A stretch of 64,000 nucleotides of DNA from the NCBI GenBank assembly GCA_949948985.1, contig CATLIG010000007.1, forward strand, positions 1 through 64,000. The letters are read 5' to 3'. Of this stretch, positions 50,148-58,157 are shown in pieces. Under the pieces are notes generated by a model. It was not told the origin of the DNA. It ran no database searches and was given only the letters and a program-made list of their open reading frames with translations. The position numbers were made by a program, and so were the translations under genes. Every line of letters begins with the position of its first letter. Position 1 is the first letter of the stretch. This DNA comes from an uncultured Clostridia bacterium. Lineage in GTDB: Bacteria; Bacillota; Clostridia; Lachnospirales; CAG-274.

Positions 50148-51278
50148 TTAAACATCAAGATGCTTTCTGACAGAAGTAATACTTCCAATTACGCCAAGAC
50201 CTCCGCCAAGAATTACAGCTATTGGAACAATAAATGAAAATACCTCCACACTAGGACTAAACTCAAAAAGCCTTTTCAGGAGAGAAAACTCGTTATACAT
50301 AGCTCCTATAATCTCATCATAAGAAATCCAGCTTATAATACATGGAATAACAGAGCCTATTATTCCAATAAGGAGTCCCTCAACAATAAAAGGCCCTCTT
50401 ATAAATCTATCTGTAGCGCCGACATATTTCATTATACTTATCTCGTTTTTTCTTAAAAGCACAGTAAGCTTTATAGTATTTATAATAATTCCGGTAGCTA
50501 TAATTCCCATAACAAGTATAAGTATAATACTAATAATTCTTATTGTATTTTTTATCGTTGAAAGTGAATCGGCAAGAGACTGAGAAGCCTGAATTTTATA
50601 TATGCCTTTATATTTATAATCTTCAGCTCCGATAACACTCATTTCCGCCTTTTTATATTCCTCAAGAGAAATACCGCTGGCGTCTTTTGAGGAATCAGAA
50701 ATACTTGAGTTTTCCGTTTCCTCTGATGTGTTTTCAGACGTTTCTGTTCTATCAGCGTTTTCTGATTTACCAACGTTTTCTGTCTTAAAATTTTCCTCTA
50801 CAGATTTTGAAACAATTTCTTCCTCATAGCTTTTTTGAATCACCTCTGCCGCGGCAATAACATCTCTTTGATTTTCCGAGCTGTCAATCATAAGTACAAA
50901 TGAGCGTGGAAGAGGATTATCTTTTTCAAGCCCCTCCCAAAGCTTTGAGTCGCTGCTTGCCAAAGAACCTTTGCCTTCTTCCAAAGCCATTTCTTTTGAT
51001 ATGTATCTAACCTCAGAAACATGAGAAATTTCCTTGAATTTCTGCTCAAGCATAGAAACGTCCCTATCAGGCACACTGTCCTTAATATATACATTAACTC
51101 CTATCTTTGACTCAAACTGATTAATAACATAACTTATATTTTCAACGATACATAGAGAAATAATAAGTATAAAAATACATGCCATAACTGTAATAATTGC
51201 CGCGAGAGACATAAGCCTGTTTTTAAGAATGCCTGAAACTCCTTGTCTTATATGATATTTTAAAGTTCTAAATTTCAT
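50148..51278 (-). CDS. ftsX: Cell division protein FtsX with enlarged extracellular loop
   Basis: The 376-residue product has four membrane helices, the first at about 25-45 and three in the last 160 residues (NTIRIISIILILVMGIIAT, FIVEGLLIGIIGSVIPCIIS, IVPIAVILGGGLGVIGS). The outer loop has the usual VNVYIKDSVPDRDV start but holds an extra Ser/Glu/Thr-rich insert of about 60 residues (about 160-215). Typical FtsX is near 300 residues. It overlaps ftsE by 11 nt and precedes the M23 hydrolase it likely controls. Confidence 0.93.
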   Translation of the reverse strand: MKFRTLKYHIRQGVSGILKNRLMSLAAIITVMACIFILIISLCIVENISYVINQFESKIGVNVYIKDSVPDRDVSMLEQKFKEISHVSEVRYISKEMALEEGKGSLASSDSKLWEGLEKDNPLPRSFVLMIDSSENQRDVIAAAEVIQKSYEEEIVSKSVEENFKTENVGKSENADRTETSENTSEETENSSISDSSKDASGISLEEYKKAEMSVIGAEDYKYKGIYKIQASQSLADSLSTIKNTIRIISIILILVMGIIATGIIINTIKLTVLLRKNEISIMKYVGATDRFIRGPFIVEGLLIGIIGSVIPCIISWISYDEIIGAMYNEFSLLKRLFEFSPSVEVFSFIVPIAVILGGGLGVIGSITSVRKHLDV

Positions 51279-52076: not shown

Positions 52077-53177
52077 TTAATACATATAATTATCTTTATA
52101 ATTCATATACTTGCTTACCATAAGCATAATTTTAAAAATAATAGCGTCATCAAAATTACGAAGGTCAAGACCTGTCATTTTTTGCAGCTTGTCAAGTCTA
52201 TATACAAGAGTATTTCTGTGTATATAAAGCTGCCTTGATGTTTCAGAAACATTAAGATTGTTTTCAAAAAATTTATTTACAGTAACAAGCGTTTCTTCAT
52301 CAAACTGTTCCATTGAAAGACCATGAAGTACCTCGTTAATAAACATTCTGCAAAGAGGAGTCGGAAGCTGATAAATAAGTCTGCCGATTCCAAGCTGTTC
52401 ATAATTAACAATACTTTTGCTTTCCTCAAAAATTTTGCCAACTTCAAGAGCCATTTTAGCCTCTTTGTAGGAAGATGAAATATTTTTAAGGTCAAAAACA
52501 ACCGTTCCTATTGCTATATAAACATTGCTCATAGCCTCTGACGTAAGGGTATCATAAATAGTTTTCGAAATATTCTGAATTTCTTCTTTTTCTTCATCTT
52601 CCTCTTTTTCTTTAAGTTCTTTAACAAGTATAATACTTTTCTCATCAACCGCCGTAACAAAATCCTTGCCTTTAGCCGGGAAAATATTTCTCACAATTTC
52701 GACAACATTTAAATCCTTATCAATCTCAGTTTCAATAAGAAAAACAATTCTTCTCACATTATTCTCAATATGTAATTTTTTAGCTCTGCTGTATATATCC
52801 ACAAGCAACAAATTGTCAAGCAGTAAATTTTTTATAAAATTATCTCTGTCATATCTTTCTTTATACGCCACAAGAAGACTTTGAATTTGAAAAGCTGTTA
52901 TTTTACCTATTCTGTATGTTTCATCATCTTCTCCTTTTGTAAGAACGACATACTCCGTATTTCCGCTGTCAAAAACCTTAAAATAATGATATCCCTGAAC
53001 AAGCTGAGTTTCAGCGGGACTAGCTATAAAAAGTTCTATTCTGTCAATAGTTGAGTTCAATAAATCTTCTTCTGTTGTAGCGATAATCTTTCCTTCTCTT
53101 TCAGCGATACTAAACTCTCTGCGTGTAATATTTTTTAAACCATCAATGGTATTTTGTAAAATCTGATTAGAAATCAT
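52077..53177 (-). CDS. PucR/CdaR family transcriptional regulator
   Basis: The 366-residue product ends in the PucR C-terminal helix-turn-helix (NLNVSETSRQLYIHRNTLVYRLDKLQKMTGLDLRNFDDAI, about 310-350) preceded by a GGDEF-derived-like middle domain (about 160-290). The N-terminal 130 residues are a sensor region without a recognisable ligand motif. ATG 53177 with AAAGGAG is preferred over a longer frame. These regulators usually control carbon or nitrogen use genes; the target here is unknown, and ftsE lies next downstream past a repeat. Confidence 0.88.
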   Translation of the reverse strand: MISNQILQNTIDGLKNITRREFSIAEREGKIIATTEEDLLNSTIDRIELFIASPAETQLVQGYHYFKVFDSGNTEYVVLTKGEDDETYRIGKITAFQIQSLLVAYKERYDRDNFIKNLLLDNLLLVDIYSRAKKLHIENNVRRIVFLIETEIDKDLNVVEIVRNIFPAKGKDFVTAVDEKSIILVKELKEKEEDEEKEEIQNISKTIYDTLTSEAMSNVYIAIGTVVFDLKNISSSYKEAKMALEVGKIFEESKSIVNYEQLGIGRLIYQLPTPLCRMFINEVLHGLSMEQFDEETLVTVNKFFENNLNVSETSRQLYIHRNTLVYRLDKLQKMTGLDLRNFDDAIIFKIMLMVSKYMNYKDNYMY

Positions 53178-53960
53178 AATGTCACTCCTTTTAATCTTCT
53201 GGAAAAACAATTTTCATAACGCTTTTATAAATACATTCAATAAACGTCAATTTGTAGCAACTTATAAAATCAACAAGTTTAAACAATAAAATAATTTATC
53301 GAGTTTAAACATAATTTTATTATTTTGCTATAACTCAAAACAATAAATAATTTCACCAAGTCAGAAATCAGACATAAATTTAATTTCAACTAAAAATACG
53401 GCCATTAAAAATTTAATAAAATTAAAATTATTTTTTAAATTGAAATTTAGTGTAAAATCCGTTTTTAACAAACTAAAAACATATTTTTTGTAATAGACCT
53501 GCCATAATTGATTTTTACTCTGTTAAAACAGCATTTCTCTCACCCTGTCATTACTTTATTGTTTTGATATAAATTACACTTATTTATATTGTACAACAAA
53601 TTTAAAAAAAATAAAAGCCTATTCTGTAAAATACACTAAAATTTTTTTGTGTTTTACAGTAATTCCGGCATGTACCAATTAGCAGAATTTTTATTACAAA
53701 CCAACAACAGGATTTCTTAATATATCAGTTCTATTAAAATTTATTTGTTCATCATTTTATTTGTTCGCTATATTGTAGAAAAAATATTTTATTCAAAATT
53801 TTAGCATAAGACGTTTTTTCTTTTCTCAGTCTGTTCCGGAATTGCCGTAAAATTAAAAACCTTGTGCTTTTTTATAATAAAATGACTTTATTATAAACTA
53901 CTTTTATGATATAATGAATATAAATTTGTTATATCCACTTTTTACAAGGAGGCATAAACT
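53178..53960. other. Intergenic 783 bp with F-type repeats and zapA promoter motif
   Basis: No gene is seen. An F element spans 53253-53332 (TGTAGCAACTT to ATTTTGCTATA), and a second F-like piece lies near 53690-53775. A family A scrap (AGACCTGCCATAATTG) lies near 53510. TGATATAAT at 53907-53915 is an extended -10 motif 45 nt before the ZapA-like gene. Confidence 0.5.
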
Positions 53961-55352
53961 ATGGAAGACAAAAAAAACTATGTTAAAGTAATAATAGATA
54001 GTACTGTATATACGCTTGTCGGTGTGGAAAGTGAAAAGTATATTCAATCAGTTGCGGAATACATAAACGAAAAAATAAATGAGTTAAATAAAGGCACATT
54101 AAATCAGGTAGGATTAAATAAAGCATCTTTAATTGTAACTCTTAATATAGCAGACGACTATTTCAAAGAAAAAGAAAAAAATAAAATCCTTGAGGAAAAA
54201 ACACTAAAAGCGGATAATAAATCTCAAATAAATAATGATTTTTTAATAAAAAAAGATAAAGAAATAGACCAAATGAAAGAAGAACGTCAATCTTTGGAAA
54301 TAAAGATAAATTCATTGACCTCAAAACTTAATGAATTTAAAAATAAATTTGAAAAATCACAAAAAGAGTTATCTCAGACTAAAGAAAACTTTAAAACTTT
54401 AGAAGAAGAAACAGAAAAATCAAAAATAAATTTCGACCTTATAAATGTAGAACTCTCTCAAACTAAATCTAAGCTGCAAGATTCCGAAAATGAGCTCTCT
54501 CAGACTAAGTCCAAGCTGCAAGATTCTGAAAACGAGCTCTCTCAGACTAAGTCCAAGCTGCAAGATTCTGAAAACGAGCTCTCTCAGACTAAGTCTAAGC
54601 TGCAAGATTCCGAAAACGAGCTCTCTCAGACTAAGTCTAAGCTGCAAGATTTTGAAAATGAGCTCTCTCAGACTAAGTCCAAGCTACAAGATTCCGAAAA
54701 CGAACTCTCTCAGACTAAATCCAAGCTGCAAGACTTCGAAAATGAGTTTCCTCAAACTAAATCCAGTATTGAAGCCTTTAAAAATGAGCTCTCTCAGACT
54801 AAATCCAAGCTGCAAGATTCCGAAAATGAACTCTCTCAGACTAAATCCAAGCTGCAAGGTTCCGAAAACGAGCTCTCTCAGACTAAATCCAAGCTGCAAG
54901 ATTCCGAAAATGAGCTCTCTCAGACTAAGTCTAAGTTGCAAGATTCCGAAAACGAGCTCTCTCAGACTAAGTCTAAGCTGCAAGATTCCGAAAACGAGCT
55001 CTCTCAGACTAAATCCAAGCTGCAAGATTTCGAAAATGAGTTTCCTCAAACTAAATCCAGTATTGAAGCCTTTAAAAATGAGCTCTCTCAGACTAAATCC
55101 AAGCTGCAAGATTCCGAAAACGAGCTCTCTCAGACTAAGTCCAAGCTGCAAGATTCTGAAAATGAGCTCTCTCAAACCAAATCCAAGCTGCAAAATTCCG
55201 AAAACGAGCTCTCCCAGACTAAATCCAAGCTGCAAGATTCTGAAAATGAGCTCTCTCAGATTAAATCAGAATTAAAAACTACCAAAAACGAATTAATAAC
55301 CGCTAAAAATGAATTAGCCGATTTTATAGACAACTTTGACAATAATAAATAA
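53961..55352 (+). CDS. ZapA-like cell division protein with 20-unit coiled-coil repeat array
   Basis: Residues 1-75 match ZapA: KNYVKVIIDSTVYTLVGVES, then EYINEKINELN and LNIADDYFKEKEK. ZapA normally ends near 90-150 residues and bundles FtsZ. Here 463 residues are encoded: a charged coiled coil (about 75-160), then a perfect-register array of 14-residue units ELSQTKSKLQDSEN (about 164-443) and a polar tail. Fourteen residues equal two heptads, so a long rigid rod is expected. GGAGG precedes the ATG. The next gene encodes a U32 protein, the usual neighbour of zapA in clostridia. Confidence 0.85.
   Translation: MEDKKNYVKVIIDSTVYTLVGVESEKYIQSVAEYINEKINELNKGTLNQVGLNKASLIVTLNIADDYFKEKEKNKILEEKTLKADNKSQINNDFLIKKDKEIDQMKEERQSLEIKINSLTSKLNEFKNKFEKSQKELSQTKENFKTLEEETEKSKINFDLINVELSQTKSKLQDSENELSQTKSKLQDSENELSQTKSKLQDSENELSQTKSKLQDSENELSQTKSKLQDFENELSQTKSKLQDSENELSQTKSKLQDFENEFPQTKSSIEAFKNELSQTKSKLQDSENELSQTKSKLQGSENELSQTKSKLQDSENELSQTKSKLQDSENELSQTKSKLQDSENELSQTKSKLQDFENEFPQTKSSIEAFKNELSQTKSKLQDSENELSQTKSKLQDSENELSQTKSKLQNSENELSQTKSKLQDSENELSQIKSELKTTKNELITAKNELADFIDNFDNNK
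54450..55289 (+). repeat. 42-bp tandem repeat array (20 units) inside the ZapA-like gene
   Basis: Twenty consecutive 42-bp units of the type GAGCTCTCTCAGACTAAGTC run without frame loss. Units 8 (from 54744) and 15 (from 55038) carry the same variant EFPQTKSSIEAFKN, exactly seven units or 294 bp apart, showing a higher-order duplication. Other frames and the opposite strand are open here only because the period is a multiple of three. Confidence 0.92.
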
Positions 55353-55401: not shown

Positions 55402-57798
55402 TTGAAAATAAACACTCCGCCTGAACTGCTTTCCCCCGCCGGTACAAAGGAAAGTGTATACTCCGCTGTAAATAATGGATGTAATGCGGTTTATCTTGGA
55501 GGTAAAAAATTCAGTGCCAGAAAATATGCTGCAAACTTTTCCGATGACGAGCTTATTGAGATAATAGATTTTTGTCATATAAGAAATGTAAAAGTTTTTA
55601 TAACCATTAATACTCTTTATAAGAATTCAGAAATAAACGAGCTTCTTGAATTTGTTTCAAAAATGTTCTATGCTGGAGCTGATGCCTTTATAATACAGGA
55701 TTTAGGAATATTTAGTATTTTAAAATCAAGTTTCCCTTCAATAAAACTTCACGCCAGTACACAAATGACAGCGCATAATATCGATACTGTAAATTTTTTG
55801 GACAAGCTCGGTTTTTCAAGAATTGTGTTAAGCCGTGAACTTTCACTTGATGAAATATCTGACATATGTGAAAAAACTTCTTCAGAAATAGAGGTTTTTA
55901 TTCATGGAGCACTATGTGTAAGCTATTCAGGAAGATGCCTTATGAGCAGCTTTATAGGCGACAGAAGCGGAAACAGAGGTCAATGCGCTCAGCCATGCCG
56001 TTTAAAGTATTCTCTTTATAAGGATAATATGAAAATTAAAGAAGATTACCTTTTAAGTCCAAAAGACATAATGACATTAAATTTAATTGATAGCCTCGTT
56101 AAATGTGGTATAAGCTCTTTTAAAATTGAAGGGCGGATGAAAAGTCCCGAATACGTTGCGCAAGTTACAAAAATATACAGAAAATACATTGACTTTTCTA
56201 TAGAAAATAATTTCAGCAATTATTCAGATGAAGATATAAAAAATTTAACTCAGATATTCAACCGAGGAGGAAGCTTTTCAACCGGATATATGAAAAACTG
56301 GGCCGGAACGGAAATGATAAGTCCATCTCCCAAAAGCAGCGGAATAAAAATAGGAATTGTAAAAAGCTACAACAGAGAATCAGAAAAAGCCATAATATAT
56401 CTTTACGATAACATAGTTCCAGGCGACGGAATAGAAATATGGACAAATACTGAACCTCACGTTGGTGCGGGAATTTCAAAAACCGCAAAAAAAAATGATA
56501 CAATATCATTAAAAATAAAAGGCAATATAAAAAAAGGAAACTATGTATATAAATCCTTTGATAAAATATTAAATGATGAACTAAAAAAAGAATATAAAAA
56601 AGACGTAAGAAAAACTGAGATTTACGCCTATGTAACAGCAAAAACAAATATGCCGTTAAAATTAAAACTATGTTTTAATAATATAACCGTTGAAACAAGC
56701 GGAGCTATTGTCAGTCCCGCCGAAAAAACTCCCATAACAAAAGAAGAACTTGTAAAACGTCTTTCCAAAACAGGAAACACGCCATATAAATTAAATTTTA
56801 AAAAGATAGTCTGTGATGACAATATTTATATACCCATAAGCAATATAAATTCATTAAAAAGAGAATCTCTTTTATCTCTTGAGAAAGAAATAATCATTCA
56901 GTATAAAAAAGAAAATATAGATGTGGTATACTTTCCCAAAAAGCAAATTCTTCCTGAAAACAAATATATAACTGTTCATCTTAACACAGAAGAACAATTC
57001 TATTGCGCTTTAAATCACAATATAAAAAGAATTTACTTTGAGTTTAACGACATACTAATTAAAAATTATAAAACATATATAGAGCTTTCTCATAAAAATA
57101 ATATAGAGTTTTTTATTTGTTTTCCAAAAATATACAGAAAACCATTTTTTAAATCATTTAAACAAGCACTTAAATCTTTTGAGGAAAGTGATGCCGATGG
57201 TTACCTTTTAAGAAATTTAAGCAATATAAAAACAAAAAAGAAGCTTGCCGCCGACTACACGCTCAATATATTCAACAGCGCAAGCGTCTCTTTCGCTCTG
57301 TCTTGTTTTGATGAGATTACTCTTTCACCTGAACTTACACTGTCAGAACTTAAAGAAACAGCGATGGATAATACTGAAATTTTTGTATACGGCAAGCTTA
57401 CATTAATGACTACACATCAATGTCCTGCCGGTCTTTATGACGCTGAAAAAAAATCGGGTCAATTCTGTTCTTTAAAAGGCAATAAACACAATTATTATTT
57501 AAAAGACCGTTTAGGTGTTTGCTTTCCCATACAAACAGACTGTATTTCCTGTACCTCATATATATTAAGCAGCGCACCTATATGCCTTTTAGACAGATTT
57601 AATGAAATAACACCTATCCCCGCTAAATATTTTAGAATTACCCTTACCAATGAAAATGTTAAAATAAGTGACGATATACTTTATTCTCATATAAAACTTT
57701 TATCAGGAAAAAAAACTGACTCCCGTATAAAAGATACAATAGCAAATATAAAAGAAAACGGATTTACGGAAGGTCACTTTTTTAAAAGAGTTTTATAA
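55402..57798 (+). CDS. U32 family peptidase-like protein (RlhA/YrrO type)
   Basis: The 798-residue product carries the U32 signature EVFIHGALCVSYSGRCLMSS near residues 164-183, with further cysteines in RGQCAQPCRLKYSLY and FKIEGRMKSPEYV. A second half with DUF3656-like and U32-like segments has late cysteines (TTHQCPAG, GQFCSL). The long two-part form is related to RlhA, which hydroxylates 23S rRNA, so a role in RNA modification is as likely as peptidase activity. Start is TTG 55402 with AAGGTGAT upstream, 49 nt after the ZapA-like gene. Confidence 0.88.
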   Translation: MKINTPPELLSPAGTKESVYSAVNNGCNAVYLGGKKFSARKYAANFSDDELIEIIDFCHIRNVKVFITINTLYKNSEINELLEFVSKMFYAGADAFIIQDLGIFSILKSSFPSIKLHASTQMTAHNIDTVNFLDKLGFSRIVLSRELSLDEISDICEKTSSEIEVFIHGALCVSYSGRCLMSSFIGDRSGNRGQCAQPCRLKYSLYKDNMKIKEDYLLSPKDIMTLNLIDSLVKCGISSFKIEGRMKSPEYVAQVTKIYRKYIDFSIENNFSNYSDEDIKNLTQIFNRGGSFSTGYMKNWAGTEMISPSPKSSGIKIGIVKSYNRESEKAIIYLYDNIVPGDGIEIWTNTEPHVGAGISKTAKKNDTISLKIKGNIKKGNYVYKSFDKILNDELKKEYKKDVRKTEIYAYVTAKTNMPLKLKLCFNNITVETSGAIVSPAEKTPITKEELVKRLSKTGNTPYKLNFKKIVCDDNIYIPISNINSLKRESLLSLEKEIIIQYKKENIDVVYFPKKQILPENKYITVHLNTEEQFYCALNHNIKRIYFEFNDILIKNYKTYIELSHKNNIEFFICFPKIYRKPFFKSFKQALKSFEESDADGYLLRNLSNIKTKKKLAADYTLNIFNSASVSFALSCFDEITLSPELTLSELKETAMDNTEIFVYGKLTLMTTHQCPAGLYDAEKKSGQFCSLKGNKHNYYLKDRLGVCFPIQTDCISCTSYILSSAPICLLDRFNEITPIPAKYFRITLTNENVKISDDILYSHIKLLSGKKTDSRIKDTIANIKENGFTEGHFFKRVL

Positions 57799-57805
57799 AA
57801 ATAAT

Positions 57806-57979
57806 AGACTTCTTTTGAAACTGTGTCATCACAGCAATTCCAAAAAAAAGAAAAAATATTTTTTCAACGTTTCATAGAAAGTCATTTTGATTTTTAAATA
57901 CCGAAAGCGTTAAAAATTATTGAATAAAATACCTTTTTCCAACCTCTCCGGAATTGCTGTAAAGTTTCAGAAGAAATCT
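57806..57979. repeat. Family C element downstream of the U32 gene
   Basis: A 174-bp element with AGACTTCTTTTGAAAC and GTTTCAGAAGAAATCT ends. Inner arms ACAGCAATTCC and GGAATTGCTGT form a second inverted pair. The rest of the 57799-58157 gap has no gene; AATCAGCGTTTTTTAGATTT lies just before the next start. Confidence 0.6.
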
Positions 57980-58157
57980 GATAACTGATTTATAGAAAAC
58001 ATAATATAACAGTAGTCGGTTAGAGAAATTATTTTTAAAGCATTTGATTGTTTCTCACCCGTTTTTATAAAATGTTATAATGGTATAAAAAATAATTTTA
58101 CAAAAAAATCCGCGACTCACTGCAATCAGCGTTTTTTAGATTTTCGGAGTGATTTTT

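Follow-up and report, generated by a model that had tools for sequence, protein, structure and literature searches.

The zapA locus and its neighbors

The window, by which the whole analyzed stretch of 64,000 nucleotides is meant, harbors a zapA gene on its forward strand (53961..55352). The gene encodes 463 amino acids in an open reading frame delimited exactly as in the initial annotation, and a strong Shine-Dalgarno sequence, AAGGAGG, can be read in front of it (53946..53952, forward strand). ZapA is normally a small cell-division protein that bundles the FtsZ ring, and it is pictured as tying FtsZ filaments close together. The protein of the window consists of five parts, all encoded on the forward strand. 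A head with a beta-beta-alpha-alpha fold (aa 1-80; 53961..54200) is followed by a coiled-coil linker of irregular heptads (aa 81-163; 54201..54449), which is modeled as helix from aa 92 onwards. The linker leads into 19 tandem 42-bp units with the consensus ELSQTKSKLQDSEN (aa 164-429; 54450..55247), which were delimited by Tandem Repeats Finder and in-register reading. Degenerate edge units (aa 430-450; 55248..55310) and a non-repetitive C-terminal cap, ELADFIDNFDNNK, recognized by comparison with sister species (aa 451-463; 55311..55349), complete the protein. It is the sole ZapA in the 3.29-Mb draft genome.

Upstream of zapA lies, on the reverse strand, the gene of a PucR-type regulator with a PucR HTH and a GGDEF-like domain (52077..53210), which is found upstream of zapA in the sister species G001 too. 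Downstream, a gene for a U32-family peptidase follows on the forward strand (55402..57798). This neighbor is conserved, as it adjoins zapA downstream in 34 of the 43 loci of the family that have enough downstream sequence. This indicates that the ZapAs of the family are orthologues. A scan for promoters and terminators returned sites that were no more numerous than in shuffled sequences.

Three further features were observed in the surroundings. A palindromic element resembling MITE or REP sequences is located 3' of the U32 gene (57806-57980). Its ends of about 30 nt are nearly complementary (AGACTTCTTTTGAAACT..ACAGCAATTCC / GGAATTGCTGTAAAGTTTCAGAAGAAATCT) and it folds far better than shuffled sequences (z -4.9). 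A further element, whose inverted ends are related to these (TTTACAGTAATTCCGG / CCGGAATTGCCGTAAA), is positioned between the PucR-type regulator and zapA (53645-53859), so that the zapA-U32 pair is flanked by such elements; the sequence TCCGGAATTGCNGTAAA has three matches compared to 0.04 expected. The FtsX encoded at 50148-51278 on the reverse strand carries a low-complexity insert rich in Ser, Glu and Asn (approximately residues 160-205) that separates its extracellular domain from the permease C-terminus.

Identity of the head

The first 160 residues scored 52.4 bits against the Pfam ZapA profile PF05164 (cut-off 23.8), which confirms the assignment of the first 75 residues to a ZapA head in the initial annotation. 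The NCBI model NF010724 gave 39.1 bits and thus remained under its cut-off of 80. As this model is of the equivalog type and stricter than PF05164, the low score does not exclude membership in the broader ZapA family. A profile built from 24 relatives matched the solved ZapAs 3hnw, 2mmv, 1t3u/1w2e, 4p1m and 9isj. The AlphaFold model of the head (pLDDT 87) shows two strands (residues 6-12 and 15-21) and two helices (25-43 and 54-109), and ZapA chains occupied all of ranks 1 to 5 when this model was submitted to Foldseek. Superposition of head models on solved ZapAs with VIA-align yielded modest Z values of 4.2-6.2. The head is therefore that of a ZapA, although a diverged one.

Head fold, profile and the order of an N-terminal head and a C-terminal helix are shared with the ZapAs of E. 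coli (4p1m), K. pneumoniae (9isj/9isk), P. aeruginosa (1w2e) and Geobacillus (2mmv). However, the solved chains comprise only about 86-123 residues and form a short helix bundle, whereas in the protein of the window 19 cassettes and a conserved tip are part of a tail of about 390 residues. The best sequence match to its head and proximal coiled coil is 3hnw (E 5e-25), an uncharacterized PDB protein of 138 residues, which has neither the array nor the long rod.

The tandem array

In the 64-kb window, Tandem Repeats Finder detected one dominant array with a period of 42 bp and 19.4 copies (54453-55267; score 1140), the next-best score being 80. Reading in register gave 19 clear units of 14 residues, of which 12 are exactly ELSQTKSKLQDSEN and two correspond to the variant EFPQTKSSIEAFKN, followed by a degenerate 20th unit, ELSQIKSELKTTKN. 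The two copies of the variant (54744..54785 and 55038..55079) lie 294 bp apart and mark a higher-order repeat. Identity at a lag of 294 bp amounts to 0.89, compared to 0.82-0.87 at other lags. A second copy of the array was sought across the 3.29-Mb genome and none was found. The initial annotation had described 20 units, a 294-bp higher-order duplication and DNA repetitive enough to change its length in frame. The count agrees to within one unit, the duplication is real but modest, and the potential for in-frame length change is supported.

The units were also compared with respect to their codons. Measured against the consensus, 18 units contain 37 synonymous and 11 non-synonymous codon changes, and mean pairwise pS and pN among units are 0.37 and 0.04, respectively, a ratio of 0.10. 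Since the differences are mostly synonymous, the unit peptide is under selection. Its amino acids are kept while the DNA of the units drifts.

Coiled-coil anatomy of the rod

The hydrophobic residues of the rod recur with a period of 3.50 (z 34 against shuffled sequences), and the rod contains about 1% Pro and, to rounding, no Gly. Each 14-residue unit equals exactly two heptads. Every a position is occupied by Leu, Ile or Phe, the d positions mostly harbor Thr or Ser (also Phe), and the g and e positions carry paired Glu and Lys. The regular coiled-coil rod proposed in the initial annotation is thus supported. In a putative in-register parallel dimer, 36 g-e' pairs would attract and none would repel, a count built from just two kinds of pair that recur 18 times. 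A shift by half a unit reverses the pairing (4 attractive, 66 repulsive), and a shift by a whole unit restores it. Antiparallel pairing also fits the charges in some registers, so the parallel orientation, which we infer from the charges, is tentative. The predominance of Thr and Ser in d implies a weak core, and the rod may therefore be flexible or need a partner.

In the full-length AlphaFold model, which was built with 8 sequences only and has a pTM of 0.22, a helix extends from residue 92 to 461 with a low-confidence break near 292-301. Calculated from the helix model, 370 residues at 0.1485 nm each correspond to a rod length of about 55 nm, to which one unit contributes 2.08 nm. The rod is thus predicted to be an almost continuous alpha-helical coiled coil of about 55 nm. 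The protein also exceeds the cut-off of 40 bits for the Pfam family Filament (PF00038) with a score of 50.4, as would be expected of a bacterial protein resembling intermediate filaments. Such a relationship is very improbable, as the unrelated coiled-coil families PUMA_CC, Fez1, Sec8_N and Golgin_A5 also pass their cut-offs, which points to generic scoring of coiled coils, and as the head belongs to ZapA. The matches of the protein to eukaryotic coiled-coil families in Pfam, part of which exceeded their cut-offs, are read in the same way.

Concerted evolution of the array within the genus

An array of 14-residue units sits at the same position of ZapA in each of the four species of the genus; the initial annotation had considered its absence from every relative as a sign of an assembly artefact. 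G002 encodes a complete protein of 427 residues, in which the unit follows the pattern EL(S/V)DTKSKL(E/D)xxN and is present 16 times. The array of G001 is built from a 28-residue double unit, and at least 5 units were counted before the contig ends; in the degenerate array of G003 6 units were counted in the covered part. Both the length of the array and its unit vary from one sister species to another. A profile search gave no match for a head in G003. The apparent lack of ZapA in this species is explained by contig C760, which begins with a tail that has the same cap and is followed by the same U32 gene.

The heads are 86-93% identical among the three species in which they are present, and the linkers 49-55%. 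Identity among units within a species is 0.86, 0.69 and 0.66, and 0.44 in G003 with its degenerate array, compared to 0.42-0.58 between species. Nevertheless, the register of the unit and its key positions are kept across the genus (E1 100%, L2 97%, K8 92%, L9 81%). This is a homologous array under concerted evolution, in which each species has its own homogenized unit.

These observations also bear on the reliability of the assembly. The genome is a draft of 235 contigs, and in G001 and G003 the contig breaks off within the array or at its edge, so that the assembly may not give the copy number exactly. On the same grounds the whole array could be regarded as an artefact, or the gene as a chimera of a short ZapA and a repetitive fragment. 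The concerted evolution of a homologous array in four species rules this out for practical purposes. The four arrays share flanks or cap and differ in sequence, synonymous changes separate the units of the window, and its array occurs once in the genome. An artefact is thus the least probable of the explanations considered here.

The cap is conserved beyond the array. The motif E-L-x-D-F-I-[DN]-N-F-D is kept in both sister species in which the 3' end is covered, and D-F-I-[DN]-N-F-D is common to three species including that of the window. Similar endings, DFIN or DFIE, occur in the genera g3 and g9, whereas elsewhere in the family the C-termini are different.

Long ZapA proteins in the family and in other clades

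ZapA was found in 44 of 48 genomes of the family. The 42 complete proteins collected comprise 217-493 amino acids with a median of 316, and each of them has a long tail. Across the order, most ZapA open reading frames among the matches listed encode 110-230 amino acids, typical relatives mostly having 110-200. In a large sister family, a length of 217 amino acids is reached by only about 9 of 130 ZapAs. The initial annotation had stated that the usual length is more than tripled. This is correct in relation to the order, where most proteins have 110-200 residues, but not in relation to the protein's own family with its median of 316. Its view of an isolated ZapA without precedent does not hold, as long rods occur all over the family and again in other clades. 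Four phylum-wide open reading frames of 666, 354, 267 and 286 amino acids were rejected as stop-to-stop artefacts, the proteins having 92, 187, 176 and 90 residues.

In other clades, units of 14 residues occur in genus g5 and units of 18 residues in g10. Clostridium fessum has a ZapA of 406 amino acids with a 22-residue unit, the ZapAs of family f17 contain units of 28, 31, 39 and 43 residues and reach 832 amino acids, and those of family f49 have 11-residue units and lengths of 694-1218 amino acids. In f6 long ZapAs are scattered, whereas in the family of the window all complete ZapAs collected are long. The proteins of f17, f49 and C. fessum resemble that of the window in combining the head with a long, mostly coiled-coil tail that has its own tandem unit. 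However, their units of 11, 22, 28, 31, 39 or 43 residues are unrelated in sequence to the unit described here. Because the units differ in both length and sequence, the expansions look independent. A tree of the heads (86 columns) left the deep order unresolved and did not recover the family as one clade; the argument for independent origins is therefore based on unit sequences and lengths and not on the tree. Within the family, the 14-residue unit possibly shares its origin with quasi-14 repeats near aa 150-210 of other genera.

Two of the long proteins exceed that of the window in estimated rod length, namely the ZapAs L090 (G256; 832 aa) with about 113 nm and L074 (G610; 1218 aa) with about 170 nm. 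In genus g7, the loci L055, L022, L023 and others lack the U32 neighbor seen elsewhere in the family. Most ZapA tails of this genus contain the motif ITDAGLVPP.PDKNGKIKDKDKDRETLLKELNDIKSENGR, which interrupts the coiled coil and is altered in G029.

Long tails are not always coiled coils. Among five long ZapAs of the large sister family, G480, G447, G454 and G487 show little or no heptad signal and the protein of G412 (665 aa) is a coiled coil; long tails in other Lachnospirales can be acidic and without coiled-coil character. Tails with so little heptad signal indicate that this part of the protein is evolutionarily permissive, and lengths and units vary freely between genera. Both facts would fit a near-neutral expansion, in which slippage adds heptads, selection removes only changes that break the helix and the rod has no dedicated function. 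We regard this as rather unlikely, but as the most plausible of the alternatives. No complete ZapA collected from the family is shorter than 217 amino acids, which argues that the long tail is kept and not just tolerated, and both the cap conserved beyond the array and the pN/pS of 0.10 among units point in the same direction. The presence of long tails in every complete ZapA collected from the family, lengthened repeatedly with different units, suggests a division ring in which the reach of ZapA can evolve. The length of the complete ZapAs across the family, together with the apparently independent lengthening in several clades, implies selection on how far the cross-linker reaches.

A putative long-reach cross-linker of FtsZ

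In known ZapAs, the heads bind FtsZ in pairs, and two such pairs are joined by a bundle of their C-terminal helices, so that a dumbbell-shaped tetramer cross-links filaments (PMC12216130, PMC12754632). We propose, with a probability of about one half, that the ZapA of the window is a long-reach cross-linker and spacer of FtsZ, whose coil has been lengthened by duplication of a cassette. By analogy, the head (aa 1-80) would bind FtsZ filaments as other ZapA heads do. Short ZapAs use the C-terminal helix for the bundle that joins two head pairs; here this helix would have been extended by in-frame duplication of a two-heptad cassette. With the heads on FtsZ, the rods would project away from the filament and pair with other rods, and the conserved tip DFIDNFD may meet a partner. 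The Z-ring would thereby be held at a distance of tens of nanometers and not at the reach of a short ZapA. Unequal recombination or slippage would change the length of the array in whole steps of 14 residues (2.08 nm).

A coiled coil that is attached to the Z-ring through a ZapA head is also provided by ZapB in E. coli and by ZauP in Caulobacter. ZapB is located 37-48 nm inside the FtsZ ring (PMC4388696), which is of the same order as the predicted rod of about 55 nm. In Caulobacter, ZauP, another partner of the coiled-coil type, fills the part of ZapB, and ZapB and MatP are limited to enteric-related bacteria (PMC7858052). ZapB and ZauP are separate proteins, whereas the coil of the window is a covalent part of ZapA, and the comparison concerns their role and not their sequence. 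By this analogy, one protein might do part of what ZapA does together with ZapB or ZauP elsewhere.

The comparison can be carried further. Rod and tip might bind a partner on the chromosome or the membrane and tie the nucleoid to the Z-ring in the manner of MatP-ZapB or ZapT-ZauP. The restriction of ZapB and MatP to enteric-related bacteria, with ZauP filling the role in Caulobacter (PMC7858052), is compatible with such a built-in connector, as are the cap motif, with its conservation in the genus and its similar forms in g3 and g9, and a rod length comparable in order to the distance between FtsZ and ZapB. However, no partner is known in this lineage, the cap is short and could merely end the helix, and the C-termini differ in other genera of the family. 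A connection to the nucleoid is therefore considered unlikely.

The cross-linker and spacer reading also permits a more speculative extension, which we consider doubtful. The ZapA of this family might act as a genetically tunable molecular ruler, in which recombination of 42-bp cassettes would alter the rod in 2-nm steps and thereby reset the spacing of FtsZ filaments or the distance to a partner. Concerted evolution would keep both strands of the coil in register, and the architecture of the Z-ring would be set heritably by rod length, a control that evolved repeatedly in Bacillota.

A whole family whose complete ZapAs exceed the well-studied ones two- to fivefold in length offers natural length variants, which provide a direct way to ask how filament spacing controls Z-ring condensation. 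Long ZapAs may also show how bacteria that lack ZapB, ZauP or EzrA organize the inner side of the ring. The ZapA head, the coiled coil and the duplication of cassettes are known as such. A literature search, whose reach did not extend to most subscription papers, found no description of long or repeat-bearing ZapAs; in the literature covered, neither the combination nor its family-wide presence and recurrence was found described.

The genome encodes FtsZ and SepF, and a profile search of the genome for EzrA (PF06160) gave no match. ZapA grips an N-terminal Phe hook of FtsZ, and a Phe at position 4 is reported to be conserved in Gram-positives (PMC12216130). If the TTG start is assigned correctly, the FtsZ of this genome (L070, G000:C13) begins with MLDISNDDF and thus has Ile at position 4 and Phe at position 9.
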